This document shows, one piece after another, positions 8,951 to 36,322 of a DNA stretch of 64,000 nucleotides. Within the stretch, counting starts at the first letter, position 1, and each line of letters opens with the position of its first letter. Below the pieces are notes generated by a model, which saw only the letters and a list, made by a program, of their open reading frames with translations, ran no database searches and had not been told where the DNA came from. Made by a program: the position numbers and the translations under genes. The stretch is from Jannaschia aquimarina (GTDB lineage: Bacteria > Pseudomonadota > Alphaproteobacteria > Rhodobacterales > Rhodobacteraceae): positions 1 through 64,000 of the forward strand of contig NZ_JYFE01000037.1 in the NCBI RefSeq assembly GCF_000877395.1, in the 5' to 3' direction.

Positions 8951-10504
8951 TCAGCGCAAGGCCGCGATCACGTCCGCCGTCTTGGTGACCAGCGCCACGT
9001 TGCGCATGGCATAGTCGATGCTGGCCCGGTGCCAGTCGGCGTTCATGGTCGAACAGGCGTCTTCGGGGATGACCATGAGATAGCCCTTGTCCGCGCCGGT
9101 GCGGGCCGTGTGCTCGATGGACATGTTCGTCCACGCGCCGGTCTCGATGATCATATCGCGACCCTCGGCCTTGAGGATGGTCTCGAGCCGGGTGCCCTCC
9201 CATGCCGACATGCGCATCTTTTCGACGATGTGGTCGCCCGGCTGCGGCTCGGCGCCCGGAGCGGCAGCGGCGCCCCATGTGCCGCGCACCAGCGCCTCGC
9301 TGTCGAGCAGGTCCTCGAAGAGCGGGGCATTCAGCGTCAGGCCGGGAGCGCCCGGCTCGACGATGAAGTGGACGTGGATCACGGGAATGCCGAGGCTGCG
9401 GCACTTGTCCGCCAGCGCGGCCACATGGGTCAGGGCGTTCTGGCTGCGGCAATGGGCCGGCGAGCCGGAGTCGGCGAAGGCCCCACCCTCCATCACGACG
9501 TCGTTCTGCATGTCCTGGATCACCAGCGCGCAGCGCGCGGCGTCGAGCTGGAGGGGTTCGCCTTCGGGCGCCTGCGTGACGGCTCGGGACCGGGCGCGCA
9601 TGAAGGGCTCGTTTCGCGGACCGACCTTGGTGGTCAGCGCATAGACGCTCGTCGTGGCGCAGACATAGAGCGTGCGCCAGTCGGGGCCGCCCCAATGCAG
9701 GTTGGCGGCCAGTTCGGGGATCGCCACCTCTCCCAGCAGCTTGCCGGTCGGGGAATAGACCCAGAGGCCGCCGGGCGCCGTGACCCAGACATTGCCCGAG
9801 GCGTCGCATTTCATGCCGTCCGGCACTCCGGGGCGCAGGCTGTCCTTGATCCCCGCGGCGAAGATGCGGCCGTTTTCGAGGCGGTCGCCCTGCACTTCGA
9901 AGACGCGGATGTTGGCCTGTTCGGTGTCGTTGACGTAAAGCAGCGACTCGTCGGGCGAGAAACAGAGCCCGTTGGGCATGGTGAAGGTATAGCGGTCGAC
10001 CATCAGCGCGGGCTCGTCGCCGGGGCGGTGATCGGGGGCGAGGCGGTAGACGCCCTGGAATCCCAGCTCTCGCGGGCGTTCGACGCCGAAGCCGGGCATC
10101 CGGCCGTACCAGGGGTCGGTGAACCAGATCGAGCCGTCGGACTTCACGCAGAGATCGTTGGGGGAGTTCAACTCCCGTCCCTCGAAATGGCTGGCGAGGA
10201 CGTCGCGGGTGCCGTCGGGACGGAAGCGGGCGACGGAGGATGTCGAATGCTCGCAGACCAGCAGGTTCAGGGAGGCATCGTAGGTCATGCCGTTGCCCTT
10301 GTTGGACGGGCTGAGCACCTCTCGGACGCCGCCTGCGTCCAGGCGGCGCCGGACATCGGCGGGCATGTCGGAGAACAGGAGGTACCGGTCCACCGGATGC
10401 CAGATCGGGCCTTCGGTGAAGGTGCAGCCGGACGCCACCTGAAGGACGGGCGCGTGTTCGTCGATCAGGTCGCGGAAGGCGGGGTCGAACGCTGTGTGGG
10501 CCAT
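8951..10504 (-). CDS. SMP-30/gluconolactonase - cysteine-hydrolase-like fusion
   Basis: This 517-residue protein has two enzyme folds. Residues about 1-305 are an SMP-30/gluconolactonase beta-propeller, which usually opens lactones with a divalent metal (TEGPIW, NSPNDL, FTMPNG and DGMKCD supply typical ligand regions). Residues about 325-517 are an isochorismatase-like hydrolase: the Asp is in LVIQDMQND and the Lys in VEKMRMSAW. The nucleophile segment, normally TNVCVESTAR, is TNMSIEHTAR, so the catalytic Cys is replaced by Ser. The second half may therefore not be a normal thiol amidase. It is the last gene of the operon, so it may act on a late ring-opened or lactone intermediate. Confidence 0.83.
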   Translation of the reverse strand: MAHTAFDPAFRDLIDEHAPVLQVASGCTFTEGPIWHPVDRYLLFSDMPADVRRRLDAGGVREVLSPSNKGNGMTYDASLNLLVCEHSTSSVARFRPDGTRDVLASHFEGRELNSPNDLCVKSDGSIWFTDPWYGRMPGFGVERPRELGFQGVYRLAPDHRPGDEPALMVDRYTFTMPNGLCFSPDESLLYVNDTEQANIRVFEVQGDRLENGRIFAAGIKDSLRPGVPDGMKCDASGNVWVTAPGGLWVYSPTGKLLGEVAIPELAANLHWGGPDWRTLYVCATTSVYALTTKVGPRNEPFMRARSRAVTQAPEGEPLQLDAARCALVIQDMQNDVVMEGGAFADSGSPAHCRSQNALTHVAALADKCRSLGIPVIHVHFIVEPGAPGLTLNAPLFEDLLDSEALVRGTWGAAAAPGAEPQPGDHIVEKMRMSAWEGTRLETILKAEGRDMIIETGAWTNMSIEHTARTGADKGYLMVIPEDACSTMNADWHRASIDYAMRNVALVTKTADVIAALR

Positions 10505-10512
10505 GGCGGGGC

Positions 10513-11364
10513 CTATGCCGGGAACCAGTTGCGGGCGGGCACGGATTCGACCGTGGGACCGGGAACGGACATGCCCAGCCTGCCCACCACCTTGCCGTTC
10601 TCGATCTTCGCGCCCTTGTCGTGGACGGGCAGCAGGAACCTGGCGTCGGAATACATCAGCTTGCGGATCGCGCCCTTCTCCGCCCGCTTGGAGCCGCCGT
10701 GGTTGCCGGTGACCTGATATTCCTCCGGCCCGAAGGAGCGGTCGGGCTGGATGATCTGGTCGTGGAAATCGTAGATCACGTCGCCGCAGAGCGTGGCCCG
10801 ACCCTCGGCCGTGTCCACATGGACATTCATCGAGCCTTCGGTGTGGGCGCCCGCCATTTCGAGATAGAGGCCGGGCATCAACTCGACCGGGCCGGTGATC
10901 TCCAGATCCTCCAGCCGCAGGGCGCCGGGGGTGTGCAGCCGCTCGACCAGATGGATGATGTCGGGCTTGGGATATTGGGGGTGCATCAGCCCCGAGACGG
11001 AATATTCCAGCTCGCGCCGGTTGATGACCACGGTGGTGTTCATCGGGAAATGGTCGTCCTTGCCTGCGTGGTCGATATGCAGGTGGGTGTGCAGGACGTA
11101 GCGCACGTCGCCGGGCTTGACGCCGTGATTGGCGAGTTGGCGTTCGATCATGTTCTCATGGAATTGCAGGCCCCGCATTCCCAGCGACTCCATGATGGCG
11201 TTGTCGCGGTAGCCCGTATCGACCACCACGGGGTATTCGCCGCCCAGAATGAGGAAGCCGTAGACCGGCACGCGCCGGGTGCGGCCGCATTCACGGCCGA
11301 GCACGAGAAAGCTCGATTCCAGTTCGATGTCCCCGTAGTCGAGTACCTTGATTTCGAGTGCCAT
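10513..11364 (-). CDS. Metallo-beta-lactamase-fold hydrolase, N-acyl-homoserine-lactonase-like
   Basis: This is a 283-residue MBL-fold protein. The zinc motif HTHLHIDHAGKDD (HxHxDH) is intact, and further ligands are His in AGAHTEGS, Asp in CGDVIYD and His in LPVHDKG. The layout resembles AiiA-type lactonases, but homologues in catabolic operons hydrolyse other esters or lactones, and there is no luxI/luxR nearby. It lies eight bases upstream of the lactonase/hydrolase fusion gene and 22 bases after the VWA gene, so it probably belongs to the same pathway. Confidence 0.85.
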   Translation of the reverse strand: MALEIKVLDYGDIELESSFLVLGRECGRTRRVPVYGFLILGGEYPVVVDTGYRDNAIMESLGMRGLQFHENMIERQLANHGVKPGDVRYVLHTHLHIDHAGKDDHFPMNTTVVINRRELEYSVSGLMHPQYPKPDIIHLVERLHTPGALRLEDLEITGPVELMPGLYLEMAGAHTEGSMNVHVDTAEGRATLCGDVIYDFHDQIIQPDRSFGPEEYQVTGNHGGSKRAEKGAIRKLMYSDARFLLPVHDKGAKIENGKVVGRLGMSVPGPTVESVPARNWFPA

Positions 11365-11386
11365 CGCCTTCTCCTCCCTCGTCTTT

Positions 11387-12517
11387 TCAACTCATGGGCA
11401 TGTCGGGCGGCCCGGTAGGCCGGCCCCTCGCACCACGCGCGAAGCCCAGCACCTCGCGCGCGATGGCGGCCGGATCGCGGCCGTCGCCGAAGCGGTCGAT
11501 ATGCGGCAGGACAGCCCGCAGGGCGTCGGTTTGCGGGCGGTAGCCCTGCTCGGCGGCGAGCGGCGAGAGCCACAGGACCTGCCAGGCCAGCCCGTCGAGC
11601 CGCTCCATCGCCTGCACCAGGCTATCGGGGCCGCCGCGTTCCAGCCCGTCGGACAGGATCACCACCAGCGCGCCGCGCGCGAAGGACGCGAAACGCGGGA
11701 CCGACAGGAACGAGGCGAGCGCGTCCCCCAGCCGCGTGCCGCCGTCCCAGTCGGCGACCAGCCCGGAGGCAAGACCCAGGGCCTGATCGCGGTTCCGGTG
11801 GCGCAGGGCCCGTGTCACGCGCGTCAGCCGCGTGCCGAGGGTGAAGGCCTCGACCCGCTCGCCTGCCTGAACGAGGGCATGGGCGAAGCGCATCGCCCCG
11901 TCGGTTCCCGCCTTCATGGAGCCGGACACATCGAGCAGCAGGAGGATCCGGCGCTGCCGCTGCCGGCGCCGGCGGGTGGGCAGCATGGTCAGCTCTCCGT
12001 CGCGGCGCATCATCTCCCGGAAGGCGCGGGCCGGATCGGGAAGGCGCCCCTTACCCCCACCCCTGCGGCGGGAGATGCGTCGCGGAAGGGCGGCGGGCGC
12101 GGCGCGGCGGAAGGCGCGCAGGGCGGCGTCGGGGTCGGCCTGCGCGAAGGCGCGGATTGTCAGGCGTTCTGCGCTCGTGGCCTCGGCGCCGGACGGGTCT
12201 TCGTCCTCGGGATCGGCGAGAAGCTCGACTGCGCCGCCGTCATAGGCCGGAGGCTGGTCATCGGGTGCGCCCTCCGAGGGGGAGGCCAACGCGCGGCCCA
12301 GGAAGACCGCGTCGAAGGCCGCGTCGAAGGCGGCCCGCCTGTCCGGGCCGGGGCCGAAGATCGCGTGGGCGGCGCGGCGGATATCGGCGATTGAGCGCGG
12401 GCCCAGCAGGCCTGTCGCGGCGATGAAATCGCGCGTCTGGTCAGGCGCGGCGGGCAGGCCGATGCGCCGAAGCTCTGCCGGGAAGGCGAGAAACGGATCC
12501 AGCGCGCGGGGGGTCAT
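11387..12517 (-). CDS. VWA-domain protein, CoxE-like
   Basis: This 376-residue cytoplasmic protein has a C-terminal von Willebrand A domain. The metal-ion-dependent adhesion site is DVSGS at residues 196-200 (in ILLLLDVSGSM), with the later MIDAS parts in GGTRLGD and SDGLERG. The N-terminal half has an Arg-rich stretch before the domain. In molybdenum-hydroxylase operons CoxE works with the MoxR ATPase CoxD to mature or activate the enzyme. The start is the ATG overlapping the moxR stop (ATGA). A longer in-frame reading crosses the moxR gene and is not credible. Confidence 0.85.
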   Translation of the reverse strand: MTPRALDPFLAFPAELRRIGLPAAPDQTRDFIAATGLLGPRSIADIRRAAHAIFGPGPDRRAAFDAAFDAVFLGRALASPSEGAPDDQPPAYDGGAVELLADPEDEDPSGAEATSAERLTIRAFAQADPDAALRAFRRAAPAALPRRISRRRGGGKGRLPDPARAFREMMRRDGELTMLPTRRRRQRQRRILLLLDVSGSMKAGTDGAMRFAHALVQAGERVEAFTLGTRLTRVTRALRHRNRDQALGLASGLVADWDGGTRLGDALASFLSVPRFASFARGALVVILSDGLERGGPDSLVQAMERLDGLAWQVLWLSPLAAEQGYRPQTDALRAVLPHIDRFGDGRDPAAIAREVLGFARGARGRPTGPPDMPMS

Positions 12518-13395
12518 GCGACGGCCTCGGCGAGGAGCGCGTCGAGATCGGGGGCGACGAAGGTCAGGTCGTCCTGATCCTTGAGGGCGACGCCGATGGC
12601 GGCGGCGAAGGCGCGCGGCCAGGGCGCCCCCTGCCCCGCCAGCAGGGTCGCGGCCTCGGCCCATTCCACCGTCTCGGCCACGCCGGGCGGCTTGGCCAGC
12701 GGACGCTCGCGCAGCGCGCCCACGGCGGCAACGACCTTGCGCGCCGTGTCCTCGGCCACGGTGGACGCGCGCATCATGACGATCTGCGCCTCCAGTACCG
12801 GATCGGGATAGTCGATCCAGTGATAGACGCAGCGTCGGCGCAGCGCCTCGTGCAGTTCGCGGGTGCGGTTGGAGGTCAGGATGACGATCGGCGGCTCCGG
12901 CGCGCGCACGGTGCCGCGTTCGGGGATCGAGATCGTGAAGTCCGACAGGAATTCGAGGAGGAACGCCTCGAATTCGTGGTCGGCGCGGTCGATCTCGTCG
13001 ATCAGCAGAACACGCTCGGACGGCTTCTCCAGCGCGCGCAGGATGGGCCGGGCGATCAGGAACTCGTCGGCATAGAGGTTCACGTAGCCCTCGTCCGCCT
13101 GACGGATGGCGAGCATCTGGCGCGGGAAGTTCCACTCGTACATCGCCGCCGACGCGTCGATCCCCTCGTAGCATTGCAGGCGGACCAGTTCGCGCCCGAG
13201 GATCGAGGCCAGCGCCTTGGCGGCCTCGGTCTTGCCGACGCCCGGCGCGCCTTCGAGCAGGAGGGGCTTGCCCAGCGAGAGCGCCAGGAAGATCGCGGTC
13301 GCCAGCCCCTCAGAGGAGATATACTGCGCCTCGCGCAACGACGCCGCCAGCCGGTCGGGCGATTCCAGCCCGCGGGGAAGGCGCCGGACCGCCAT
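12514..13395 (-). CDS. MoxR-family AAA+ ATPase, CoxD-like
   Basis: This is a 293-residue MoxR ATPase. Walker A is GAPGVGKTEAAK (residues 49-60), Walker B is VLLIDEIDRAD, and sensor 1 is in VILTSN. MoxR proteins act with VWA proteins as chaperone pairs that insert or remodel metal cofactors. CoxD/CoxE do this for CO dehydrogenase-type enzymes. The gene lies directly between the split molybdenum-hydroxylase subunit and the VWA gene, sharing one base with the former (TGATG) and four with the latter, so co-translation is likely. Confidence 0.9.
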   Translation of the reverse strand: MAVRRLPRGLESPDRLAASLREAQYISSEGLATAIFLALSLGKPLLLEGAPGVGKTEAAKALASILGRELVRLQCYEGIDASAAMYEWNFPRQMLAIRQADEGYVNLYADEFLIARPILRALEKPSERVLLIDEIDRADHEFEAFLLEFLSDFTISIPERGTVRAPEPPIVILTSNRTRELHEALRRRCVYHWIDYPDPVLEAQIVMMRASTVAEDTARKVVAAVGALRERPLAKPPGVAETVEWAEAATLLAGQGAPWPRAFAAAIGVALKDQDDLTFVAPDLDALLAEAVA

Positions 13396-14417
13396 CAGAG
13401 CGCCTGCCGCGGCCGCGCGCCGCCATTGGCCCGGATGCCGCGCAGCACCTTTTCGGGCGTTACCGGCAGATCATCGATGCGCACGCCCACCGCGTCGTAG
13501 ATTGCATTCACCACCGCCGGGAGGACAGGGTTGGCGCACATCTCGCCCGGGCCCTTGCCGCCATAGGGACCGTCCTCGGCGGGGCGTTCGAGCACGCTGA
13601 TGTGGTGGGTCGCCAGATCGCCGGGGCCGGGCATGGCATAGTGATCGAAATCGACGGGGCCATGGTCGCGGTCGGGATAGTAGGGTTCCGTCGTCTCCCA
13701 TGCGGCGTGGCTCATGCCCATCCAGGCGCCGCCCCGAAGCTGCTGTTCGACGAGGCCGGGGTTCAGGGCGCGGCCCACCTCGTAGGCGGACTGGATGTCG
13801 AGCACCTCGACCTCCCCGGTCTCGGCATCGACCTCCACTTCGACCACGAGGGCGGCATGGGCGAAGGTCGTGACGGGGGACATCTCTCCGGTCTCGGGAT
13901 CGACCTCGGAGAGCGGCACGAGGAAGATGCCGCGCCCTGCGATGGTGCGACCCTGGCGGAACTGCGCGGCCTGCGCGGCGGCCATGGTGGTGATCGTGCG
14001 CGAGGGCGCGCCGCGGACATGGATGTTGCCCTGCCCGTCGGTCACGAGATCGCCGGCATCGACCTCGAGCTCTTCGGCGGCGGCCTCCAGCATGACGGCG
14101 CGGGCTTCAAGGGAGGCCTGGATGACGGCGTTGCCCATGCGGTGCGTGCCGCGCGAGGCGAAGCTGCCCATGTCGTGGGGGCCGGTATCGCTGTCGGCTG
14201 TGTCGACATAGACATCGGCGATGGGGACGCCCAGCGTCTCGGCGGCGATCTGGCGGGTGACGGATTTCATGCCCTGGCCCAGGTCGATGGCCGAGAGCGC
14301 GACGGTGAACTTGCCGTCGGGGTTCGAATGCACGAGCGCCTGACTGGGGTCGCCGCCCAGGTTCATGCCGATCGGGTAGTTGATCGCCGCGAAACCACGG
14401 CCGCGATGGAGCGTCAT
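13395..14417 (-). CDS. Molybdenum hydroxylase large subunit, C-terminal half (split gene)
   Basis: This 340-residue protein is the second molybdopterin-binding half of a xanthine-dehydrogenase/aldehyde-oxidase-type large subunit. It begins at the middle of the usual ~750-residue chain (MNLGGDPSQALVHSNPDGKF, DLGQGMKSVTRQIAAETLG, SFASRGTHRMGNAV). It carries the active-site Glu in GGKGPGEM. The start ATG overlaps the stop of the N-terminal half (TGATG), and a perfect AGGAGG lies five bases upstream. That is evidence that it is translated as a separate polypeptide rather than created by a sequencing error. It must pair with the N-terminal half to form an active site. Confidence 0.88.
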   Translation of the reverse strand: MTLHRGRGFAAINYPIGMNLGGDPSQALVHSNPDGKFTVALSAIDLGQGMKSVTRQIAAETLGVPIADVYVDTADSDTGPHDMGSFASRGTHRMGNAVIQASLEARAVMLEAAAEELEVDAGDLVTDGQGNIHVRGAPSRTITTMAAAQAAQFRQGRTIAGRGIFLVPLSEVDPETGEMSPVTTFAHAALVVEVEVDAETGEVEVLDIQSAYEVGRALNPGLVEQQLRGGAWMGMSHAAWETTEPYYPDRDHGPVDFDHYAMPGPGDLATHHISVLERPAEDGPYGGKGPGEMCANPVLPAVVNAIYDAVGVRIDDLPVTPEKVLRGIRANGGARPRQAL

Positions 14418-16111
14418 CAGCGCCTCCTGAAGCCGGAGAGGGACGAGAACCGCATCGCGCCGGAGCGGGCTGGCTTCCTAGCGGGCGGCGACGTGTCGGC
14501 GCGCGGCGCATCGGGGCGGGGCGCAGGGTCCTTCGGTTCGGGTGCCGGCGCGGCGGGCCGGGACGCCGGGGCGGATGCGCCGGGCGGCAGGGTCGCGACG
14601 ATGGCCGGGCTGGCGGGGGCCCCGCCCTTGCGGGCGTAGCTGCCAGAGGAGAATCCCTCGACGAGGCCGTTCTGGTCTGTCGCGGTGTGGGCCGGAAGCT
14701 CTGCCCGGGGGCCGCCGCCACCGGTCTTGGAGGATGCCGCCAGCATGTCCGGCGACAGGCGAAGGCCCGCCTTCTGCGCCGCGACCTGGCAGCATTCGAC
14801 CAGGGCGCAGTTCTTGGCAAGGCGGCGATGGGCCTTCATGTCGCCGTCGCGATAGGCGTTGAGGATGCGCAGCTCGACCGGGTGCAGGCCCACCGTTTCG
14901 GCGACCTTGTCCATATGCGCCTCGATGGCGAAATCGACACCGGTGATCCCGAAGCCGCGCATGGCCGTGGCCGGTGTGCGGTTGGTGTAGACGCAATAGA
15001 CGTCCGCATGGACATTCGGGATCGTATAGGGTCCGGGCAGGTGGCCCGCGCATTTGATCACCGCGTAGGAGGTCAGGCGCGTATAGGCGCCGCTGTCGAA
15101 ATATCCGGTGAACTTTCGGGCGACGATGCGGCCGTCATTCATCACCCCGTCGGTCAGGTACCAGCGCTCTGCCCCACGCGGGGCGCCCACCTGCATCTCT
15201 TCCTCGCGGTCCCACTGGCTCTTGCAGGGCTGGCCCGTGAGCATGGTGCCCAGGATGGCGAGCGGTTCGTGGATCGAGTCGACCTTGCCGCCGAAGCCGC
15301 CGCCCACCGTGCCGCCGATGAAATGCAGGCGCGACGACGGCAGCTCGAGCAGCTTGGACGCCGTGCCCAGCGAAAAGAAGAGCGCCTGCGTCCCCGTATA
15401 GCAGACGTAGCGGCCGTTCTGCTCCTGCGCGGCGATGGCGCCGCAGGTCTCGATCGGGGCCTGTTCGATCGGCGACATCTGGTAGCGCCCCTCGATCACG
15501 TGGTCCGCCTCGGCCAGGGCACGATCCACGTCGCCGTAGCGCAGTTTCTGGTGATCGTACTTGCCGTGATAGACGAAGGCGTTGCCCGGATAGGTCTCGT
15601 TCACGGTAGGGGCGCCGGGCTTCAGCGCCTCTTCGACATCGAGGACGTGGGGCAGCACCTCCCAGTCGACGCGGACAGTACGGGTGGCGGCGCGGGCCTG
15701 CGCCTCGGTGCGGGCGATCACCGCGGCGACGGGCTCTCCGCGGTAGGCGACCTTGCCTTCGGACAGGAGCGGTTCGTCGTCGAGGCCGAAATCCAGAAGC
15801 GACAGGAGCGTGTTGAGGTTCACCGGCACATCGCGCCCGGTGACGATGCGGACGACGCCCTCCATCCGGTCCGCCTCGGAGGTGTCGATGCGGCGGATAC
15901 GGGCGTGGTGATGGGGCGAGCGCACGCAGCGGATATGCAGCAGGCCGTCGAAGAGGTGGTCGTCATAGAAGGGCGAGCGGCCGGTGACGTGACCCTCGAT
16001 GTCCTGCCGGCGGATGCGCTTGCCGATCTCGTTGAGGTCGTCGTCACGCTCGTCGGCGAAGAGGTCCTTGCGCATCTCGAAGCCGTTGCGGTCGGATCTG
16101 CGGTCGCTCAT
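14417..16111 (-). CDS. Molybdenum hydroxylase large subunit, N-terminal half (split gene)
   Basis: This 564-residue protein is the first half of a xanthine-dehydrogenase-family large subunit: the a/b hammerhead (FDGLLHIRCVRSPHHHARI), then the first molybdopterin domain with GGTVGGGFGGK and AMRGFG. After about residue 455 it ends in a Pro/Ala-rich tail that is not part of the normal fold. The motif is not the AYxCSFR of true CO dehydrogenase, so another substrate is expected. The ATG overlaps the stop of the 2Fe-2S subunit gene (ATGA). Together with the next gene it makes one complete large subunit, which would hydroxylate an aldehyde or heterocycle. Confidence 0.88.
   Translation of the reverse strand: MSDRRSDRNGFEMRKDLFADERDDDLNEIGKRIRRQDIEGHVTGRSPFYDDHLFDGLLHIRCVRSPHHHARIRRIDTSEADRMEGVVRIVTGRDVPVNLNTLLSLLDFGLDDEPLLSEGKVAYRGEPVAAVIARTEAQARAATRTVRVDWEVLPHVLDVEEALKPGAPTVNETYPGNAFVYHGKYDHQKLRYGDVDRALAEADHVIEGRYQMSPIEQAPIETCGAIAAQEQNGRYVCYTGTQALFFSLGTASKLLELPSSRLHFIGGTVGGGFGGKVDSIHEPLAILGTMLTGQPCKSQWDREEEMQVGAPRGAERWYLTDGVMNDGRIVARKFTGYFDSGAYTRLTSYAVIKCAGHLPGPYTIPNVHADVYCVYTNRTPATAMRGFGITGVDFAIEAHMDKVAETVGLHPVELRILNAYRDGDMKAHRRLAKNCALVECCQVAAQKAGLRLSPDMLAASSKTGGGGPRAELPAHTATDQNGLVEGFSSGSYARKGGAPASPAIVATLPPGASAPASRPAAPAPEPKDPAPRPDAPRADTSPPARKPARSGAMRFSSLSGFRRR
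14423..14428 (-). promoter_or_regulatory. Perfect Shine-Dalgarno before the C-terminal half of the split large subunit
   Basis: AGGAGG stands five bases upstream of the ATG at 14417 and lies inside the last codons of the N-terminal half. It decides the start of the downstream gene and supports a genuine split with translational coupling. Confidence 0.8.
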
Positions 16112-16584
16112 GCGCTGGCCTTCCGTCCGGCGAGCGAGAGGATCGCGTCGATGATCGGGTCGTATCCCGTGCAGCGGCAGAGATTCCCCGAGATCGCCTC
16201 GACCACCTCCTCGCGGGTCGGGTTCGGGTTGCGGTCCAGCAGGGCGCGGGCCGAGACAAGCATTCCGGGCGTGCAATAGCCGCATTGCGCGGCGAAGTGG
16301 TCCATAAACGCCTGCTGCAAGGGGTCAAGCGTGGCGCCCTGCCCCAGCCCGGCGGCGGTCCGCACGTCGCATCCCTCGACCGTTTCGGCCAGGGTCAGGC
16401 AGGCCAGCCGGGTCTCCCCGTCGATGGTCACCGTGCAGGCGCCGCAGCTTCCCTGCCCGCAGCCGTATTTCGGGGACAGGTCGCCCAGACCCCGGCGGAT
16501 GAAGTCGAGCAGGTTCTGGCCGGGATCGGCGAAAGCGGCGCGCTCGGCACCGTTATGGGTCAGGGTGACGGGTATCTTGGTCAT
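16108..16584 (-). CDS. Molybdenum hydroxylase 2Fe-2S subunit (CoxS/CutS-type)
   Basis: This 158-residue iron-sulfur subunit passes electrons from the molybdenum centre to FAD. The plant-type cluster motif is CGQGSCGACTV with a later Cys in RLACLTL. The C-terminal cluster is bound by CGYCTPG and CRCTGY. Length is typical for CoxS. It overlaps the FAD-subunit gene and the large-subunit gene by four bases each, which fits a stoichiometric complex. Confidence 0.95.
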   Translation of the reverse strand: MTKIPVTLTHNGAERAAFADPGQNLLDFIRRGLGDLSPKYGCGQGSCGACTVTIDGETRLACLTLAETVEGCDVRTAAGLGQGATLDPLQQAFMDHFAAQCGYCTPGMLVSARALLDRNPNPTREEVVEAISGNLCRCTGYDPIIDAILSLAGRKASA

Positions 16585-17384
16585 CGTCCCTCCTCCATCC
16601 GTGCGAGGAGGCGGCCGAGATGGACGCCCGCGACCTCGCCGCGATACCAGCCGCTGGCGAGCGCGTCGGTGGGCGGGTCGAGACCCTCGGCGGCGACGGC
16701 GACAGCGCGCTCGCGGGCCGCCTGATCGAGGCGTCCTCCTTCGAGCACGCGCTCAACGGCGGCCGCGCGCAGGGGTGTGGGCCCCATCGCGCCGTAGGCC
16801 ACCCGCACGCCGGCCAGCTTTCCGCCCGGCGAAGGCGCAAGAACGGCGATGGAGATGACCGAGACGCCGCGCGGCTTGACCCGGCTGACCTTGTGGAACC
16901 GGAAGGCGCGCGCGGGCGGGCGCGGGATCTCGACCGCTTCGACAAGGCCGCCGGGGCGGTCCCGGTCGCGCAGGAGATCGTCGAGGGGCCGCGTTCCCCC
17001 TGCCCCGGCCATCCGGGCGCGGGCGCCCAGCGCCAGCAGGGCGACGGCGAAGTCGCCGTAGGGATGCGGTGCGAAGAGGTTGCCGCCGACCGTCGCCATG
17101 TTGCGGATCTGCGGGCTGCCGACGGCGCGGGCGACGGGGTGCAGGAAATCGAGCTGCGGCTCTGCCAGGATGCGGGCCATGGTGACGCCCGCGCCCACGG
17201 TGACGGTATCGCCGCGTGCACTCACGGCGCGCAGGACCGGATCGGCGGTCCGAACGAGCCGCGGCGGCGCGGTCCCGGCATTGACGGCGCGCATCAACAT
17301 GGTGCCGCCGCCCAGATAGGCGGCCCCGTCGGACAGGATGCGCGCGGCCTCGGCCGTCGTGGCGACGGTCTCGACCCGGGTCAT
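16581..17384 (-). CDS. Molybdenum hydroxylase FAD subunit (CoxM/CutM-type)
   Basis: This 267-residue flavoprotein subunit has the FAD pyrophosphate-binding motifs AAYLGGGTMLMRAV (near residue 21) and ATVGGNLFAPHPYGDF (near 95). The C-terminal CO_deh_flav_C-like domain contains VAYGAMGPTPLRA. It delivers electrons to the final acceptor. The start is the ATG overlapping the preceding SRPBCC stop (ATGA). Gene order FAD subunit - FeS subunit - large subunit is the coxMSL order. Confidence 0.93.
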   Translation of the reverse strand: MTRVETVATTAEAARILSDGAAYLGGGTMLMRAVNAGTAPPRLVRTADPVLRAVSARGDTVTVGAGVTMARILAEPQLDFLHPVARAVGSPQIRNMATVGGNLFAPHPYGDFAVALLALGARARMAGAGGTRPLDDLLRDRDRPGGLVEAVEIPRPPARAFRFHKVSRVKPRGVSVISIAVLAPSPGGKLAGVRVAYGAMGPTPLRAAAVERVLEGGRLDQAARERAVAVAAEGLDPPTDALASGWYRGEVAGVHLGRLLARMEEGR

Positions 17385-17824
17385 GCCTCCAGCCCCATGC
17401 GCGCGCGGATCGCGTCGAAGCCGCTTTGATAGACGCCTTCGGCCACGAGGTCGCGCAACTCGCGCTCGCGGCCCTTGGGGGTGTCGAAACGGCTTTCCCA
17501 TTGCCAGAAGGTCCAGTCCTCGTCCGTCACGGGGGCGAGGCGGACATGCGAGACGTAGTTCAAGAGAGGGATCGGCGTGTCGAGCAGGCAGTAGGAATAG
17601 GCCATGTCCGCATCCGACAGGGTCAGGAGCTGTTCGCGCAGCTCGGACCCGTCGGCGAGATGAAAGCGGCGCACGCATCCCACCTTGTCCGAGCCCTGCC
17701 CCCGCTCGATCTGGCTGTCGGTGATGGCGGGATGCCATTCGTCGTGGCCGTTGAAGTCGCGCAGGATATCCCAGACCGCCTCGACCGGGGCCTCCATGAC
17801 GGTGCTCTTGACGACCTTGACCAT
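17381..17824 (-). CDS. SRPBCC family protein (CoxG/START-like) 1
   Basis: This 147-residue SRPBCC (Bet v1/START fold) protein begins MVKVVKSTVMEAPVEAVWDI, followed by WHPAI and DKVGCVRRFHLADG, the pattern of polyketide-cyclase-type or CoxG-type proteins that bind a hydrophobic ligand. It is a sister of the next-door gene with the same layout. Location directly before the molybdenum hydroxylase genes matches coxG, whose product helps anchor or assemble the enzyme at the membrane. Binding of the pathway substrate is an alternative. Confidence 0.8.
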   Translation of the reverse strand: MVKVVKSTVMEAPVEAVWDILRDFNGHDEWHPAITDSQIERGQGSDKVGCVRRFHLADGSELREQLLTLSDADMAYSYCLLDTPIPLLNYVSHVRLAPVTDEDWTFWQWESRFDTPKGRERELRDLVAEGVYQSGFDAIRARMGLEA

Positions 17825-17826
17825 GG

Positions 17827-18264
17827 TCAGGCCCCCAACTGCCGCTTGAGGGCGGAGAAGCCGGCGAGGAACACGTCCTGCCCGATCCCGGTCACGAGAC
17901 CGACGGCATCCGCCTCGTCGCATTCGAATTCCGCCGTCCACTCAGCGAAGCAGCGGTCGCCGTCGGTCACCGGGGTCAGCCGCAGGGTGGCGACGTAATC
18001 CGTCAGCGGCATGGGGCTTTCGAGGATCGCGTAGGTGCAGAAGTAGTCGTAGTCGCTGAGCCCCAGCAGACGCTCGCGAATGCGGTCGCCGTTCTGAAGG
18101 TGGAAGTCGCGGACGCAGCCGATCTTGTCGGACGGCTCCGCGTTCTCGATCCGGCTGTCGCGAATGGCGGGGTGCCAGCGCGGCAGGCCGTCGAAATCGC
18201 GCACCCGCTCCCAGACGCGCGTGGCCGGCGCGTCGATGACGGCGGAGACGTAGACGCGGGGCAT
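17827..18264 (-). CDS. SRPBCC family protein (CoxG/START-like) 2
   Basis: This 145-residue SRPBCC-fold protein has VIDAPATRVWERVRDFDG, WHPAI and DKIGCVRDFHLQNGD in the same order as its neighbour, so the two are tandem paralogues that have diverged. There is no membrane segment or cysteine motif. It starts directly at the flotillin stop with no gap and ends two bases before its sister. The two may form a heterodimer or bind two different pathway intermediates, which is inferred only from the pairing. Confidence 0.8.
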   Translation of the reverse strand: MPRVYVSAVIDAPATRVWERVRDFDGLPRWHPAIRDSRIENAEPSDKIGCVRDFHLQNGDRIRERLLGLSDYDYFCTYAILESPMPLTDYVATLRLTPVTDGDRCFAEWTAEFECDEADAVGLVTGIGQDVFLAGFSALKRQLGA

Positions 18265-21189: not shown

Positions 21190-21204
21190 GATGTATCCTC
21201 CCCT

Positions 21205-22032
21205 TCAGTCCCGTCCGATGCGTTTGAACGCGGCGGTCTGTTCCTTCATCGCGACCTCCGTGGGCAGCCGCTCCATCGAGGAGGCGCCATAGAAGCCGTG
21301 GCAGGTCTGCGAATTGCGCAGGACGAAATCGGCGTCGTCCGGCATGGCGACCGGGCCGCCATGGACCAGGATCACCGCGTCCTTCTTCACCTTCAGCGCC
21401 GCCTCGGCCCAGCGATCCACCAGCGCCGGGCATTCCTTGAGCGTCACCGCCGTCTCGGCCCCGATGGCGCCGCCCGTCGTGAGACCCAGATGGCAGACGA
21501 TGACGTCGGCCCCCGCCTCGGCCATGGCGGTCGCGCTGTCCTCGTCGAAGACATAGGGGGTGGTCAGCATCCCCTTACCGGCGGCCTTGGCGATCATGTC
21601 GATCTCGTGTCCGAACCCCATCCCGGTCTCTTCGAGCTGGGCGCGGAACGTGCCGTCGATCAGGCCGACCGTCGGGAAGTTCTGCACCCCCGAGAAGCCG
21701 ACGCGGCGCAGCTCGTCCAGAAAGACGTCCATCAGGCGGAAGGGATCGGTGGCGCAGACCCCCGCCAGAACCGGCGTGTCGCGAACCACGGGCAGCACCT
21801 CGCCGGCCATTTCGAGGACGACCGCGTTGGCGTCGCCATAGGGCATGAGCCCCGCCAGCGAACCGCGCCCCGCCATCCGGTAGCGGCCCGAATTGTAGAT
21901 CACGATCAGGTCGATGCCGCCGGCCTCTTCGCATTTCGCGGACAGGCCCGTCCCGGCGCCGCCGCCGATGATGGGCTCGCCTTTCGCGATCATGGTCTGG
22001 AAGCGGTCGAGAATGTCTTGGCGCGGGATCAT
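21205..22032 (-). CDS. PEP-hydrolase-like TIM-barrel protein (Tm-1 C-terminal type)
   Basis: This 275-residue TIM-barrel protein belongs to the family of the C-terminal half of the plant Tm-1 protein. Seen: [52 protein letters not shown] and [12 protein letters not shown]. The start is the ATG overlapping the stop of the upstream fusion gene (ATGA). That upstream gene carries the matching Tm-1 N-terminal-type domain, so the pair rebuilds the Tm-1 architecture in two proteins. The reaction is unknown. A carbon-carbon hydrolase or lyase role is only a guess from the family name. Confidence 0.8.
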
Positions 22033-24245
22033 CGGCGAGCCTCGTGTTTGGTGCGTCTCTGCGCGGTGCGGGTGGGGCGCGGAGCGCCGTGGAGGCCGCG
22101 AAAGGCCTCGACCACGGCAGCGGCGAAAGCGGGATCGTTGATATGCTCGGGCCGGCGGATCAGTTGGCGGTTGGCCGTGGAGAGAACCGTGCGGTCCAAC
22201 GCATCGAAGAGCGCCTTGCGGGCCGCGGCGTCGTGGAAGGGCTGGCCCGGCGCGTCGAGGGCAGAGACCCCGCCTTCGGGCAGGAAGAAGCGGACCGGGC
22301 CCTCCATCTCGTTGAGGCGCGCTCCGATCCAGCGTCCCATCTCGGCGCATTCCTCAGGCGTCGTGCGCATCAACGTGACCTGCGGGTTGTGTTCGTAGAA
22401 CAGGCGGTCGCGGTACCGGTCGGGGACGGTGTCGCGAGCGCCGAAATTCACCATGTCGAGCGCGCCGACCGAACCGATATAGGGCTGGCGGGTACGGATG
22501 ACGGCGCGGAAACGGTCCTCGGTCGCGGCGAAGACGCCGCCGAAGAGCATGTCGCAAATCTCGGTCGTGGTCAGATCGAGGACGCCGACCACCTTGCCGC
22601 TATCGACGAGGGTCTCCATCGACTGACCGCCGATGCCGGTGGCGTGGAAGACGAGGCAGTCGTAATCGTCGTCTAGCTGGGCGACGACCTGCTGGATGCA
22701 GGGCGTGGTGACGCCGAACATCGTCAGCCCGATCGCAGGCTTGCGGCCGGGGCGCGGCGCAGCCTCCCGCCGGGCGCGCACCATGCCGATCATGGCCTGC
22801 GCGGCGTTGCCCAGCACCTCTTCGGTGATCGCATTCAGACCCTGAACGTCGGCTACGGAATGCATCATCATCAGGTCCGAGGATCCGACATAGCGTTGCA
22901 CGTCGCCCGACGCGACGGTCGAGACGATAAGCTTGGGCACGCCCACGGGCAGGGCCCGCATGGCGGGCGCCGCCATGGCCGTGCCGCCCGAGCCGCCCGC
23001 CGAGATCACGCCCGCGATCCCCTCTTGGCGGGCGATCCAGCGCGAGAAGGCCAACGCCATCCCCGCGACCGACTGGCCCCGGTCGCCGGTGAAGACGCCC
23101 GCGGCGCCGCGCGGGTGGAACGCGGCGATCTGGTGGGCCGGGATCTCGGCGCCCGTATGCCCGCCCGTCGTGGACAGGTCCGCGATACGTACCGGCAGCC
23201 CGGCCTCGCGGATGAGGTCGCGCATGTAGCGCAACTCCGCCCCCTTGGTGTCCAGCGTTCCGGCCACGACGACCACCTGCGCGCCCGGCGCGGCGAGCGG
23301 TCGGATCTCGGTACTGGCGGGGGCAGACGTGGACCGGCCGGGGACGGCGGAGGACTGGACCTTGGCCATACGCTCCAGCACCGGGACGGGAACGGGCGCG
23401 GACCACCGCGTCGGAAGCGTCGGGTTGGACTGATAGACTTTGGTGAGCGTGGGAGCGTCCGAGGGACCGGTCCGCTTTTCTTCGGCGGCAACGGGCGCCG
23501 AGTCGACAGGCGTGTCGTCATGGGCATGGCGACCGACCCCCAAAAGACGCTGTTGCAGGTCGCGGTCCCCTGCCAGTTGTGCGGCGGGCGCGAGGCGATT
23601 GATCCTGCCATTCACCATGATCGCCACGTTGTCGGCGACCGCACACGCGACGCCGATATTCTGCTCGATCACGAGGACCTCGATATCCCCCTCTTCGGCG
23701 AGACGCAGGAGGATATCCTCGACCTGCGCGACGATGACGGGGGCCAGCCCCTCGGTGGGCTCGTCCATGATCAGGAGCTTGGGGTTCGCCAGAAGCGCGC
23801 GGGAGATGGCGAGCATCTGCTGTTCGCCGCCCGAAAGCTGCCCGCCGCCATTGCTCTTGCGCTCGGCCAGGCGGGGGAAGGTGGAATAGATGCGGTCGAC
23901 AGTCCAGGCGCCTTCGGACGTCTCGACCATCCGAAGATGCTCGTCCACGGTCAGGCTGGGCCAGAGCCGCCGGCCCTGGGGCACATAGCCCACGCCCATG
24001 CGCGCGATCTCTGTCGGGTTGCGGCCCACGAGGGGCTGGCCCGCGAAGGTGATCGACCCCGAGGCGACCTGCACCATCCCCATGATCGCCTTGCAGAGCG
24101 TCGTCTTGCCCATGCCATTGCGACCGACCACCGAAAGCACGCCGCCATCGAGCCGCAGGTCCACGCCCTGCAAGGCGTGCGACGCGCCGTAATAGACGTT
24201 GAGCCCCTTGACCTCGAGGGCAGGTGCGCGCCCCCGCTCAGCCAT
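22029..24245 (-). CDS. LivF-type ABC ATPase fused to Tm-1-like (UPF0261) domain
   Basis: This 738-residue protein has two domains. Residues 1 to about 240 are a branched-chain-amino-acid-type ABC ATPase (LivF): Walker [10 protein letters not shown] (41-49), signature LSGGEQQ (137-143), Walker B LLIMDEP (157-163). A low-complexity linker of about 80 residues follows. Residues about 325-725 are a UPF0261/Tm-1-like ATP-binding domain ([38 protein letters not shown]). There is no separate livF, so this is the transporter's second ATPase. It overlaps livG by eight bases and the TIM-barrel gene by four. The fusion physically joins uptake to a probable first metabolic step. Confidence 0.87.
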
Positions 24246-25038
24246 GTCCGTCGCCCAGATAGAGTTCCTGAACCTCGGCGTCGTTCTCGATCTCTTCGGG
24301 GGTGCCTTCCTTGAAGACGGTCCCGTTGTGCATCATCGTCACGCTCTCGGCGACGCGCAGGGCGACGTCCATGTCGTGCTCGATGATGACATAGCCGATA
24401 TGCTCGGGCAGATTCGTGAGCAGGCGGACGAGCTCTCCGCGCTCGGTTGGCGACAGGCCCGCAGCGGGTTCGTCGAAGAGGATCAGGCGCGGCGCGCCCG
24501 CAAGCGCGAGCGCGATTTCGAGCTGGCGCTGCTGACCGTAGCTGAGATTGGCGACCATCGTGGAGGAGGCGTCGGTCAGGTTCACCGCCTCGATCAGTTC
24601 CTCGGCCCGCGACAGCAGCGTGTCGCCTTGCCGCGGACGCAGCATCGAGAACCGCGCGCGGGAGACGCCGCGGCAGGCGAGGTAGACATTGTCGGCCACC
24701 GTCAGTCCGCCGAACAACAGGCTGATCTGGTAGGTCCGGCGCAGGCCCCGGCGGACCCGTTCATGGGCCGGAAAGGTCGTCACGTCCTCGCCGAAGAGGC
24801 GGATCGTACCGGATGTCGGAAGGAAGTCGCCGGTCACGCAGTTGAAGAGCGTCGTCTTGCCCGCGCCGTTCGAGCCCAGCACCGCGCGCCGCTCTCCGGA
24901 TGCGACGGTCATGGTCACGTCGGCGATTGCGGCCAGGGCCCCGAACATCTTTTGGACGCCGCGCAATTCCAGCGCGGCACCGGTCGAGACCGAGCCGATC
25001 CGCGCGGGCGCGGCGGGTGTCCCGGTCTGCGCGTTCAC
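24238..25038 (-). CDS. livG: Branched-chain-type ABC transporter ATPase LivG
   Basis: This is a 266-residue ATPase. Walker A is [12 protein letters not shown], the signature is [11 protein letters not shown] and Walker B is [14 protein letters not shown]. The long insert before the signature ([18 protein letters not shown]) is typical of LivG. The start is a GTG overlapping the livM stop (GTGA). It drives uptake through LivH/LivM with the LivF-type ATPase encoded next. Confidence 0.92.
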
Positions 25039-26096
25039 CGCAGGCCTCCGTCGCGGGCCATCTGCGCCCGCCGCGCCCTCCACCGGTCCCACAGGCCCAG
25101 CACGCCGTCGGGCGAGAAGAAGACGAGCGCCAGGAAGCCCAGCCCGATCAGAAGCTTGAAGCGCTCTCCCGACAGGCCGAAGGCCAGCAGAACGTCCGGC
25201 GAGAAGGTGCGCAGCAGGACGTAGATCAGCGCCCCGATGAAGGGGCCGATCGGCCGCCCGATCCCGCCGATCACGGCGATCACCAGGATGTCGATGACGG
25301 CCGGGATGCCCGCCGTCCCCGGCGCGATCTGTGCGTTCTGCCAGACCAGCAGGATGCCCGCCACCGCCGCGATGATCGACGCGAACGTGTAGGCCGCGAC
25401 CCGGTGCGCGGTCACGTTGAAGCCCAGTGCCGCCATCCGGCGCGGGTTGTCTCGGATGCCCTGAAGCGCGAGGCCGAAGGGCGCGCGCGAGACATAGATG
25501 ACGACACCATAGGCCAGCGTCGCCCAGCCCAGCGTGAGGTAGTAGAACGGCATCGGTTCGCGCCAGTCGACGCCGAAGAGGCGCGGCGGCACCACGAGGT
25601 TGAAGCCGGTATAGCCGTTGAAGATCGTGTAGTTCTGGCGGGTGAAATAGAAGAACGCCGCCGCGATCGCGAGGGTGATCATGATCGTGTAGATGCCCTC
25701 GGTCCGCACGGCGAGGGCACCGACGATGGTGCCGAAGATCGCCGCGATGATGATCGCGATGGGGACATAGAGCCACCACGGCAGGTCCATCGAGATCTCG
25801 GCGATGCCGGAGGTTCCGAAGATCGCCACCATATAGCCCGCCATCGCCGCGACCGACATCTGGATCAGGCTGACCATGCCCCCGTAGCCCGCAAGGAACA
25901 TCAGCGAGAGCGCGATCATCCCAAGGATGAAGGTCCAGCCGAAGACCTGAAAGAGGATGAAGTCGTTCGCATAGGCCGGCAGCGTCAGCAGGAAGAGGCC
26001 CAGCGCCCACCAGACCGGCGGGATCCGTTCCACCCAACCGGCCTCCGGTCGCTCGCGGGATGCGGAGCGGTCGAGAGGGGGTTCCGCCAGCGCCAT
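25035..26096 (-). CDS. livM: Branched-chain-type ABC transporter permease LivM
   Basis: This 353-residue permease has about nine to ten hydrophobic segments. The family signature is GIRDNPRRMAALGFNV and the conserved end includes GGIGRPIGPFIGALI. It lies three bases after livH and overlaps livG by four. In this operon the substrate is probably not a simple amino acid but the compound oxidised by the downstream enzymes. Confidence 0.92.
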   Translation of the reverse strand: MALAEPPLDRSASRERPEAGWVERIPPVWWALGLFLLTLPAYANDFILFQVFGWTFILGMIALSLMFLAGYGGMVSLIQMSVAAMAGYMVAIFGTSGIAEISMDLPWWLYVPIAIIIAAIFGTIVGALAVRTEGIYTIMITLAIAAAFFYFTRQNYTIFNGYTGFNLVVPPRLFGVDWREPMPFYYLTLGWATLAYGVVIYVSRAPFGLALQGIRDNPRRMAALGFNVTAHRVAAYTFASIIAAVAGILLVWQNAQIAPGTAGIPAVIDILVIAVIGGIGRPIGPFIGALIYVLLRTFSPDVLLAFGLSGERFKLLIGLGFLALVFFSPDGVLGLWDRWRARRAQMARDGGLR

Positions 26097-26099
26097 GAC

Positions 26100-27110
26100 T
26101 CAACTCCTCCCCAGAAGGCCCTGGGGGCGGAAGGCGAGGACGGCGGCCATGATGAGGAAGGTGAATACGACCGAATAGGTCGGCGCGTAGACGAGGCCCA
26201 ATTGTTCGGCCAGACCGATCACGAGCGCGCCGATGGCCGCGCCCGGGATCGAGCCCATCCCACCCACTATCACCACCACGAGAGAGGCCAGAAGAAAGCG
26301 CGTGTCTTCCCCCGGAGAGAGCGACTGGAAGGTCCCGCCGATGATCCCGGCCATGCCGGCGAGCCCCGCGCCGAAGCCGAAGACGGCCAGGAAGACGTAC
26401 TGGATGCGCACGCCCGAGGCGGCCAGCATCTCACGGTCGTCCACGCCCGCTCGGACCAGCATCCCCAGTTTGGTCCGGTTCAGGACGAACCACATCGCGA
26501 AGCCCACGACGATCGCCGCGAAAAGGATGGCCATGCGAACAGCCGGATAGCGCAGGAACACGATCTCGCCCGAAGATCGGGTGCCGCTGACGATGGGCAG
26601 CGTCATCGGCCCGCTGAGCCAGTCGGGCGCGAAGATCGTGTAGCTCTGCCCGCCCCAGATCCACAGCAGGATGTCGGCGATGACGACCGACAGGCCGATG
26701 GTCACCATGGTCTGTCGCAGCTCCTCGCCCTCCATCCGGCGGAAGACCTGGTTTTGCAGGATGAGACCCAGCGCGGCCACGACGATGAAGACGACCGGAA
26801 AGGCCAGCAGCCAGGAGCCGGTCCGCTCGGACACTTCGAAGCCGATATAGCCGCCCAGCAGGTAGAGCGATCCATGGGCCAGGTTCACGTTGCGCATGAG
26901 GCCGAAGATCAGCGTGAAGCCCGACGCGACGAGGAAGTAGAGCGCGCCCAGCGTGACGCCGCCGAAGACCGCGTTCAGAAAGATCCGCTTGCGGCCGAAC
27001 GTCTCCTCCATCGCCTCGGACCAAGGTGCGAAGATCGACCATAGCAAGACGGCGACGACGAGGCCGATGATGACCGACCATACCGGATGGCGCGACACGA
27101 ATGCCGTCAT
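26100..27110 (-). CDS. livH: Branched-chain-type ABC transporter permease LivH
   Basis: This is a 336-residue permease. Residues about 40-330 show eight hydrophobic segments with family motifs GLMRNVNLAHGSLYLLGGY, RAGVDDREMLAASGV and GGMGSIPGAAIGAL. It is the first gene of the long minus-strand operon. The nearest upstream gene, an AraC regulator on the same strand, is 100 bases away, and this gap probably contains the promoter. Confidence 0.92.
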   Translation of the reverse strand: MTAFVSRHPVWSVIIGLVVAVLLWSIFAPWSEAMEETFGRKRIFLNAVFGGVTLGALYFLVASGFTLIFGLMRNVNLAHGSLYLLGGYIGFEVSERTGSWLLAFPVVFIVVAALGLILQNQVFRRMEGEELRQTMVTIGLSVVIADILLWIWGGQSYTIFAPDWLSGPMTLPIVSGTRSSGEIVFLRYPAVRMAILFAAIVVGFAMWFVLNRTKLGMLVRAGVDDREMLAASGVRIQYVFLAVFGFGAGLAGMAGIIGGTFQSLSPGEDTRFLLASLVVVIVGGMGSIPGAAIGALVIGLAEQLGLVYAPTYSVVFTFLIMAAVLAFRPQGLLGRS

Positions 27111-29215: not shown

Positions 29216-29318
29216 GGGGGCGTCCACGGTCAGGCGTCGCGACGAAGGCCGCGCCCTGCCGAGGCGCGCCCGGGCGATTGTGCCGGGCGCGGCGCGGCGC
29301 CCGGCCTGGCATTCGGGA

Positions 29319-32253: not shown

Positions 32254-32352
32254 GTCACCCCCCGCATTGCTCCGCCTTGATCGATATCGGCGGGGAACGA
32301 GGGCGTCCATTCCGACGGCATCGGGCAACCCGATGCCGCGGATCGCGGACGG

Positions 32353-34328: not shown

Positions 34329-34753
34329 GGCAGCGGCACCAGCAGGAGACGCCCGAAGAGAAGCGCGACGAGCACCACGACGCCGACTAGGGCCGCCGAC
34401 TGGGCGAGGACGGACCGGGCGGCGGGCCGCTCTTCGAAGGCCAGGGCCATTGCGAGGATCGCGCCGCCGATCGAGGTCGGCACGAAGCCCGTGACCGGCA
34501 ACAGGATGGCCCAACCCAGCAACAGCGCCAGGAAGAGAAGCGGCCGCGCGAGATCCCCGTGGGGGCGGGTGACGGGCGGGTTTCGCCAGACGGCGCGAAC
34601 GGCCAAAGCGATGCCGCCGAGCAGAAGGCCGAAGCCGGCCAGCCGGGGGAAGATCGCGCCGAAGGTGGACATGGCCAACGTTTCCCACAGGGCGTAGGCG
34701 CCCAGCAGGATCAGGACGACCGAGGGCAGCAGGTCGCGATGGGTCCAGGTCAT
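34325..34753 (-). CDS. tctB: TTT transporter small membrane subunit TctB
   Basis: This 142-residue protein has four hydrophobic segments (about residues 8-27, 34-56, 69-101, 117-141), as expected for TctB of tripartite tricarboxylate transporters. It overlaps the TctA gene upstream and the LeuC-like gene downstream by four bases each. Sequence within TctB is poorly conserved, so the call relies on topology and position. Confidence 0.85.
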   Translation of the reverse strand: MTWTHRDLLPSVVLILLGAYALWETLAMSTFGAIFPRLAGFGLLLGGIALAVRAVWRNPPVTRPHGDLARPLLFLALLLGWAILLPVTGFVPTSIGGAILAMALAFEERPAARSVLAQSAALVGVVVLVALLFGRLLLVPLP

Positions 34754-36314: not shown

Positions 36315-36322
36315 GGACGGGA

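Follow-up and report, generated by a model that had tools for sequence, protein, structure and literature searches.

The window analysed here is the first 64,000 nt of contig NZ_JYFE01000037.1 from Jannaschia aquimarina (Rhodobacteraceae). It holds a cluster of 16 genes, all on the minus strand and running from position 27110 to position 8951, as defined by the list of open reading frames (ORFs), Pfam matches and revised start positions. The genes encode, in order, LivH, LivM, LivG, a LivF/Tm-1 fusion, a PF09370 protein, a flotillin, two SRPBCC proteins (SRPBCC1 and SRPBCC2), the FAD and iron–sulphur (FeS) subunits of an oxidase, the N and C halves of its molybdenum (Mo) subunit, a CoxD-type AAA protein, a CoxE-type VWA protein, an MBL-fold hydrolase and an SGL/isochorismatase fusion. 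Neighbouring genes overlap by 1–8 bases or are spaced by 0–22 bp, 22 bp being the largest gap. The original prediction, made from the letters of the window, had described seventeen or so genes on one strand, mostly overlapping or within 25 bases; the one-strand cluster is real and the spacing is confirmed, while the count is 16. A molybdenum hydroxylase, a Tm-1 pair, a flotillin and two SRPBCC proteins are present as it had proposed. We add that the Mo catalytic subunit is encoded by two genes, that one half of the Tm-1 pair is fused to the ATPase LivF, and that the first SRPBCC gene lies directly next to that of the flotillin.

The FAD, 2x[2Fe-2S] and molybdenum cofactor-binding domains all exceed Pfam gathering scores, as in molybdenum hydroxylases of the xanthine oxidase family. 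The division of the Mo subunit into two chains is that of nicotinate dehydrogenase (NdhL/NdhM), which is also the best solved match of both halves (3hrd_A and 3hrd_B). Both halves score far under the cut-off of every NCBIfam model matched; for aerobic carbon monoxide (CO) dehydrogenase the scores were 157.5 bits versus 991 (TIGR02416) and 163.5 versus 950 (NF040766).

To follow the cluster through the family, 198 genomes were scanned for the flotillin; 66 had some match at E 1e-20, and by our reading of the list 23, that of the window included, carry a long orthologue with at least 55% identity. Mo-oxidase genes adjoin the flotillin gene in 18 of the 22 others, all of which were examined. The Mo C half was found in 18 family genomes, 17 of which also have the cluster flotillin; the remaining copy (L169; loci and genomes carry our L and G numbers) is contig-cut and broken. 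This copy, in genome G063, is decayed, with interrupted frames from the oxidase to the SMP-30/isochorismatase region at the contig end. In G011, G029 and G102, where the flotillin matches at 42–50%, no oxidase was seen within the stretches read.

A second scan used an SRPBCC alignment against named genomes; we took the best 80 of at least 580 relatives, a sample biased to close relatives. Order and strand are those of the window in 80/80 of these loci, and all 15 core genes occur in 55 (recount). Because order and strand are alike throughout, the arrangement is far beyond chance. The flotillin is found in 80 loci, the FAD subunit in 78 (the stretches of the other two, L122 and L144, end directly after SRPBCC2), the Tm-1 domain in 70 and LivH in 65. 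An amidohydrolase-2 gene lies between CoxE and MBL in 57/80. The AraC regulator is present in 52/80; most of the other 28 are cut upstream, and of the ∼10 loci that reach far enough and lack it, 8 carry the binding protein in its place. According to record titles, these loci belong to Rhodobacterales, Hyphomicrobiales, Roseomonas/Elioraea, Geminicoccaceae and one Arenicellales metagenome-assembled genome. The original prediction would have been refuted if flotillin, oxidase and transporter were never together elsewhere; with 18/22 family genomes and 80/80 loci, its idea of a single system strongly survives.

A less biased draw of 385 genomes of the class yielded 34 with an SRPBCC match at E 1e-30, and loci from 31 of the 33 other than that of the window (G491 and G514 were left out) were read by tblastn. 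Five are window-like (type A), 12 are of type B, one has the flotillin and a contig end, and 13 are flotillin-less stretches. Type B, the commoner flotillin form in this draw, has the importer, the Tm-1 pair, the flotillin, SRPBCC1 and a fusion of SRPBCC2 to an MDR/quinone-reductase-like enzyme, without the Mo oxidase of the cluster; one member of the set, L194, is a short contig with the last part only. In many type B loci (L055, L056, L058, L176, L178 and others) the place of the Mo oxidase is taken by FAH, enol-lactonase-like and amidohydrolase-1 genes. A variant in genome G186 (L050) lacks both the Mo oxidase and the second half of the Tm-1 pair; divergence has left 25% identity in its UPF0261 domain, and the MBL gene is followed by one that resembles aldehyde dehydrogenase. 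Some of the 13 flotillin-less stretches hold the Tm-1 pair with SRPBCC (type D), and others a weaker SRPBCC match only.

Type C comes from the phylum, where 22 genomes had matches and part of them were examined. Its loci (L206, L207, L208, L211 and L219) have SRPBCC, the split Mo oxidase, CoxD/E and an amidohydrolase, without flotillin, Tm-1 pair or Liv importer. In two class genomes (L214–L216) the split oxidase has no SRPBCC or flotillin gene within the stretches examined. Plasmid records of Shinella and Yoonia carry type A. Flotillin-less split Mo oxidases were also found in the actinobacterium Nonomuraea gerenzanensis and, with an SRPBCC gene close by, on a plasmid of the haloarchaeon Salinigranum rubrum (L221 and L222). 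Since types A–D combine scaffold, oxidase and Tm-1/SRPBCC differently, the system is modular.

The feature on which our interpretation turns is the end of the Mo N half. In type A this chain runs past the end of the fold into a Pro/Ala-rich linker of 59–171 residues (median 96.5; 21% Pro, 17% Ala) and then a conserved motif, RFSSLSGFRRR at the end of the window protein. Of 82 distinct complete ends, 79 terminate in RRR, the rest being one RKR and two pieces of the broken L169. Across 18 aligned sequences the linker is not conserved; in the motif, which is basic and has a single aromatic residue, F, G and the first two Arg of the closing triplet never vary. An RRR ending was found in none of the 16 other cluster families, nor in the sets of SMP-30 fusions, QOR, binding proteins and Fe-containing alcohol dehydrogenases (Fe-ADH).

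All 82 intact orthologues at flotillin loci have the tail versus 0/10 at flotillin-less loci (two plasmid loci included); beyond MRGFG the chain continues for 156–268 residues in the former and 82–87 in the latter. The ten tail-less orthologues come from type C loci, two oxidase-alone genomes, one actinobacterium and one haloarchaeon. Left out of this table are 14 orthologous Mo-subunit matches whose frame is cut by the locus end or whose end is missing, the L169 pieces, the unrelated Mo enzymes of L186 (31%) and L193 (33%) and the interrupted L223. Tails that mark cargo, for which encapsulation peptides are the analogy, should occur only where the shell gene is present; 82/82 and 0/10 is this pattern, possibly as the outcome of a single event.

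Because the tail of the oxidase tracks the flotillin, the proposal of a flotillin platform that holds the oxidase, part of the original prediction, gains support. What has to be revised is the closest partner of the flotillin: as type B has the flotillin without the Mo enzyme and type C the Mo enzyme without the flotillin, the flotillin belongs most closely with the Tm-1 pair and SRPBCC, not with the oxidase. Overall, the original interpretation is partly supported.

With moderate confidence we read the cluster as a catabolic operon whose oxidase would dock on a membrane flotillin scaffold. A small organic compound, likely aromatic, heterocyclic or aldehyde/lactol-like, would be imported by the LivFGHM-type ABC system and oxidized to a lactone, lactam or acid by the four-subunit molybdenum hydroxylase (FAD, 2x2Fe2S, split Mo subunit), itself presumably matured by the CoxD/E-type factors. 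The product would then be opened by the MBL, SMP-30 and isochorismatase-type hydrolases, joined in most relatives by an amidohydrolase-2 lactonase. The dedicated long-walled flotillin is predicted to hold the oxidase at the membrane through the docking motif on the flexible Mo-subunit tail, and the two SRPBCC proteins may carry a hydrophobic ligand between membrane and enzyme. This ligand would most likely be a quinone, as proposed for CoxG, or otherwise the substrate. The reading is built on the genes, their order, the tail, the wall periodicity and the co-occurrence; from these we infer the docking partner, the cage assembly, the carrier ligand, the substrate, the electron acceptor and the order of steps.

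The tail could serve other ends. It could be read by CoxD/CoxE or join the split Mo halves during maturation, the link to the flotillin being an accident of lineage; type A loci may indeed be one clade, and CoxD/E are encoded beside the oxidase in most loci. Still, type C and Nonomuraea carry CoxD/E and the split subunit and have no tail, which argues against a maturation tag. The tail is also found where CoxD/E are not adjacent (L151 and L158), and the solved 3hrd L chain, of 425 residues, indicates that a split subunit works without it. We regard a maturation role as very unlikely.

Another candidate is a general membrane helper: in an otherwise ordinary catabolic operon, flotillin and SRPBCC would protect a membrane disturbed by the substrate or its products, and the tail would be an arginine anchor for acidic lipids. 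A basic motif with one aromatic residue is possible in lipid-binding peptides; moreover, the flotillin occurs with another enzyme set too (type B), and many genomes of the family contain more distant flotillins. A pure lipid anchor, however, should neither track the flotillin (0/10 without it) nor keep Gly invariant in 18/18 aligned sequences, and we find this explanation doubtful.

The flotillin itself has Band_7/SPFH and Flot domains above the Pfam cut-offs and lies far below that of the NCBIfam FloT equivalog (34.7 versus 700). Type A flotillins have 697–1214 residues (median 975.5; 94 loci) and type B flotillins 558–730 (median 688; 15 loci). The wall has sequence repeats with lags of 11 and 44 residues, favours Ile/Val at fixed hendecad positions and contains 2 prolines in 52,984 residues. 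The wall length between two anchors equals 1 or 9 modulo 11 in 86/86 distinct type A and 15/15 type B proteins, the flotillins of L105, L045 and L122, in which no anchor was found, being left out; among four flotillins of loci of unclear type one falls outside both classes. More ordinary flotillins served as controls: 6 of 8 control loci, from four genomes, could be anchored (L031, L034, L035, L037, L064 and L065; L036 and L066 have no anchor), and all six are of class 9. The length rule may therefore be general for bacterial flotillins, judging from these lengths; what is special in the cluster flotillin is the great length of its wall. L066 (G000:C5) is a second flotillin of the window genome and lies ∼8 kb from CoxD-like (55%) and CoxE-like (35%) genes.

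An 11-residue repeat suits a right-handed barrel, and the periodicity of the wall is consistent with such a form. As a straight helix, the ∼640-residue wall would be an estimated ∼96 nm long. The wall of human flotillin, of 186 residues, is described in excerpts of PMC11260169 as a right-handed helical barrel without holes, likely impervious to small molecules. The cluster flotillin might by extension form a sealed, membrane-attached cage, with a wall ∼3x that of the human protein and made up of whole 11-residue steps. Cargo would dock by its C-terminal peptide in type A and by the SRPBCC fusion in type B, so that the imported compound would be oxidized within the cage and a reactive intermediate would not escape. 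Such a new metabolic compartment is a tentative idea that we think unlikely; if true, it would resemble bacterial microcompartments but be bound to the membrane, and would pair a constant scaffold block with interchangeable enzymes.

The model of SRPBCC1 has a helix-grip fold (pLDDT 93.4). Among the 50 Foldseek matches listed, uncharacterized proteins are closest, followed by plant abscisic acid (ABA) receptors. CoxG, an SRPBCC protein, is reported in excerpts of PMC4240915 and PMC13240472 to bring CO dehydrogenase to the membrane and the quinone pool; without CoxG, growth on CO is slower and the enzyme is no longer at the membrane (PMC4240915). CoxG is also described as quinone-binding (PMC13240472, citing Kropp 2025). 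Our best guess for the SRPBCC proteins of the cluster is a carrier next to a redox enzyme, because an SRPBCC gene accompanies the oxidase in types A and C, lies close to it in the haloarchaeon, and in type B forms a fusion with a quinone-reductase-like enzyme.

The fold neighbours, with plant ABA receptors among them, would also suit a module in which SRPBCC and the Tm-1 pair sense or activate the substrate and which works for several enzymes, the oxidase being just one of them. The Tm-1/SRPBCC block does occur with the Mo oxidase (A), with the MDR enzyme (B) or with neither (D). On the other hand, type B has SRPBCC2 and the MDR enzyme in one fusion, and both type C and the haloarchaeon keep an SRPBCC gene close to the Mo enzyme in the absence of Tm-1, which suggests that SRPBCC acts directly with the enzyme; such a module seems rather unlikely to us.

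Several observations weigh against the operon with a docked oxidase. The flotillin and the tail may have been gained together once, on one branch; for this reason, and as type A is possibly one clade, 82 versus 10 do not make 92 independent tests. The 11-residue rule is no proof of a special cage, because ordinary flotillins follow it too, and the flotillin model (helices 2–34, 202–436 and 454–849) is of low confidence, with pLDDT 60.6. The type B locus L193 has the flotillin together with a Mo enzyme on the opposite strand (the unrelated, non-orthologous one mentioned above), which has no tail. L132 shows no PF09370 match between the neighbours of that gene, and L151 and L158, both among the best 80, are without CoxD/E beside the oxidase. 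The window genome has no close amidohydrolase-2 orthologue, the best match elsewhere in it being 27%. The SRPBCC proteins match PF10604/PF03364 with no COXG Pfam match, and their chains end after the last helix without a membrane tail. Finally, type D has SRPBCC and the Tm-1 pair without any oxidase or other redox enzyme, so that the role of SRPBCC may not be electron transfer.

The sequence of import, oxidation and hydrolytic opening that the original prediction had read from the gene order fits the protein families. By NCBIfam and structure matches, the MBL hydrolase resembles N-acyl-homoserine lactone (AHL) lactonases and 4-pyridoxolactonase, and the SMP-30/isochorismatase fusion resembles gluconolactonase joined to YecD/RutB/biuret-hydrolase types; in some relatives SDR and FAH genes follow downstream. 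The common theme would be the formation of a lactone or lactam by oxidation and its subsequent opening. Three candidate substrates or pathways were set aside: homarine, on whose genes the literature search gave nothing; a caffeine-type pathway, since SRPBCC in the excerpts seen of a review is a Rieske oxygenase domain, not the type of the cluster; and a sugar-type pathway, as the FAH protein of L225 reaches 412 bits versus a cut-off of 500 (2,4-didehydro-3-deoxy-L-rhamnonate hydrolase) and its amidohydrolase 114 versus 400 for fuconolactonase. The L225 scores hint at an acylpyruvate-type last step and do not identify the substrate. On another contig, the window genome carries a 63% match to this FAH, which may be a genuine sugar gene.

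Coordinates are collected in Table 1. The unit may start further upstream, with the binding protein, Fe-ADH and AraC genes, which are separated by gaps of ∼90–105 bp. Between 8700 and 28600 we found no sigma-70-like site (1.1 in shuffled sequences) and 4 terminator-like sites (7.1 in shuffled sequences), both weak evidence. The gene hisD (7598–8899), a housekeeping gene, was kept out of the system; its usual neighbourhood in this family is here assumed.

Table 1. Features of the cluster and its upstream genes (positions in the 64,000-nt window)
Feature	Position	Strand	Evidence
Substrate-binding protein (Peripla_BP_6) of importer	29319..30581	-	Pfam; closest solved 4zpj, 4ey3, 4evq
Iron-containing alcohol dehydrogenase (Fe-ADH)	28154..29227	-	Pfam; found in part of relatives only
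AraC-family regulator	27211..28050	-	Pfam
LivH-type permease	26100..27110	-	Pfam
LivM-type permease	25035..26096	-	Gene order and tblastn; start revised
LivG-type ATPase	24238..25038	-	Pfam; start revised
LivF-type ATPase fused to Tm-1/UPF0261 domain	22029..24245	-	Pfam; Tm-1 structure 3wry, 310 bits
Second Tm-1 half, TIM-barrel PF09370	21205..22032	-	Pfam; structure match 2p10; start revised
Flotillin, 974 aa, N-terminal hydrophobic helix and ∼640-residue hendecad wall helix	18265..21189	-	Pfam; length/periodicity analysis; model
SRPBCC1, helix-grip ligand-pocket protein	17827..18264	-	Pfam; model pLDDT 93.4; Foldseek
SRPBCC2 (in type B relatives fused to MDR/quinone-reductase-like enzyme)	17381..17824	-	Pfam; relatives' loci
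FAD subunit, CoxM type	16581..17384	-	Pfam; start revised
2x[2Fe-2S] subunit, CoxS type	16108..16584	-	Pfam
Mo subunit N half, NdhL type	14417..16111	-	Pfam; 3hrd_A best; start revised
Mo-subunit Pro/Ala-rich linker and C-terminal motif, proposed docking peptide	14420..14710	-	End alignments; motif MRFSSLSGFRRR at 14420-14455
Mo subunit C half, NdhM type	13395..14417	-	Pfam; 3hrd_B best
CoxD-type AAA maturation factor	12514..13395	-	Pfam (AAA families)
CoxE-type VWA maturation factor	11387..12517	-	Pfam; start revised
MBL-fold lactonase-like hydrolase	10513..11364	-	Pfam; NCBIfam/structure matches
SMP-30/gluconolactonase-like and isochorismatase-like hydrolase fusion	8951..10504	-	Pfam; NCBIfam/structure matches

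Elsewhere in the window, aldehyde dehydrogenase and TctA/TctC transporter genes lie upstream on the same strand (30748–32328 and 34750–37312); by similarity to the window ORFs, they were not seen upstream of the cluster in the relatives examined. A single ORF at 39370–40923 joins a YceI-like domain to a short-chain dehydrogenase, an unusual fusion if real. Two tRNA-Asp genes with the same anticodon (59362–59438 and 61686–61762) are ∼2.3 kb apart.

We have thus a real, broadly conserved system, a probable 16-gene operon spread across Alphaproteobacteria, plasmids included, for which scaffold docking is a specific claim open to test. The purpose of bacterial flotillins is an open question, and here a single subfamily is linked with particular enzymes. 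The scaffold idea becomes testable through a candidate docking peptide, a simple rule for wall length and relatives that naturally lack both peptide and flotillin; the docking claim hinges on about a dozen residues. In the literature searched, which covered few subscription papers, no description of the cluster or pathway was found.

Among known systems, nicotinate dehydrogenase (3hrd), which we take to be the Eubacterium barkeri enzyme with subunits NdhFSLM, shares the split of the Mo catalytic subunit into large and medium chains. The window cluster differs by CoxD/E, the flotillin, the SRPBCC pair and the importer, and its large half has the long C-terminal tail; there is no sign that the substrate is nicotinate. 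The CO dehydrogenase cluster with CoxG (coxBCMSLDEFGHIK), as far as our partial sources describe it, has likewise FAD, FeS and Mo subunits, CoxD/E factors and an SRPBCC partner. Set against it, the window has a split Mo subunit, an AMRGFG active-site loop, the flotillin, the importer and no COXG Pfam match. We presume that the active-site loop of CO dehydrogenase is different from AMRGFG.

The SPFH domain, long wall helix and C-terminal flotillin domain are shared with the human flotillin cage (PMC11260169, excerpts) and with bacterial SPFH2/FloT; the window protein differs from the human one by its ∼640-residue wall (versus 186 residues) and N-terminal hydrophobic helix. Bacterial SPFH1/2 proteins are reported, in the text available, as tied to NfeD; the window flotillin is tied to a catabolic operon instead. 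On plasmid pRL8 of Rhizobium leguminosarum, CoxG, CoxMSL and LIV-type (HAAT) importer genes show pea-rhizosphere-specific induction (PMC3333776); the excerpts of that paper name a single CoxL and do not mention a flotillin. Flotillin-associated rhodopsin (PMC10308929) has another partner, and its excerpts do not mention a docking tail; it offers the same kind of conserved genomic link, between one flotillin and one specific machine.

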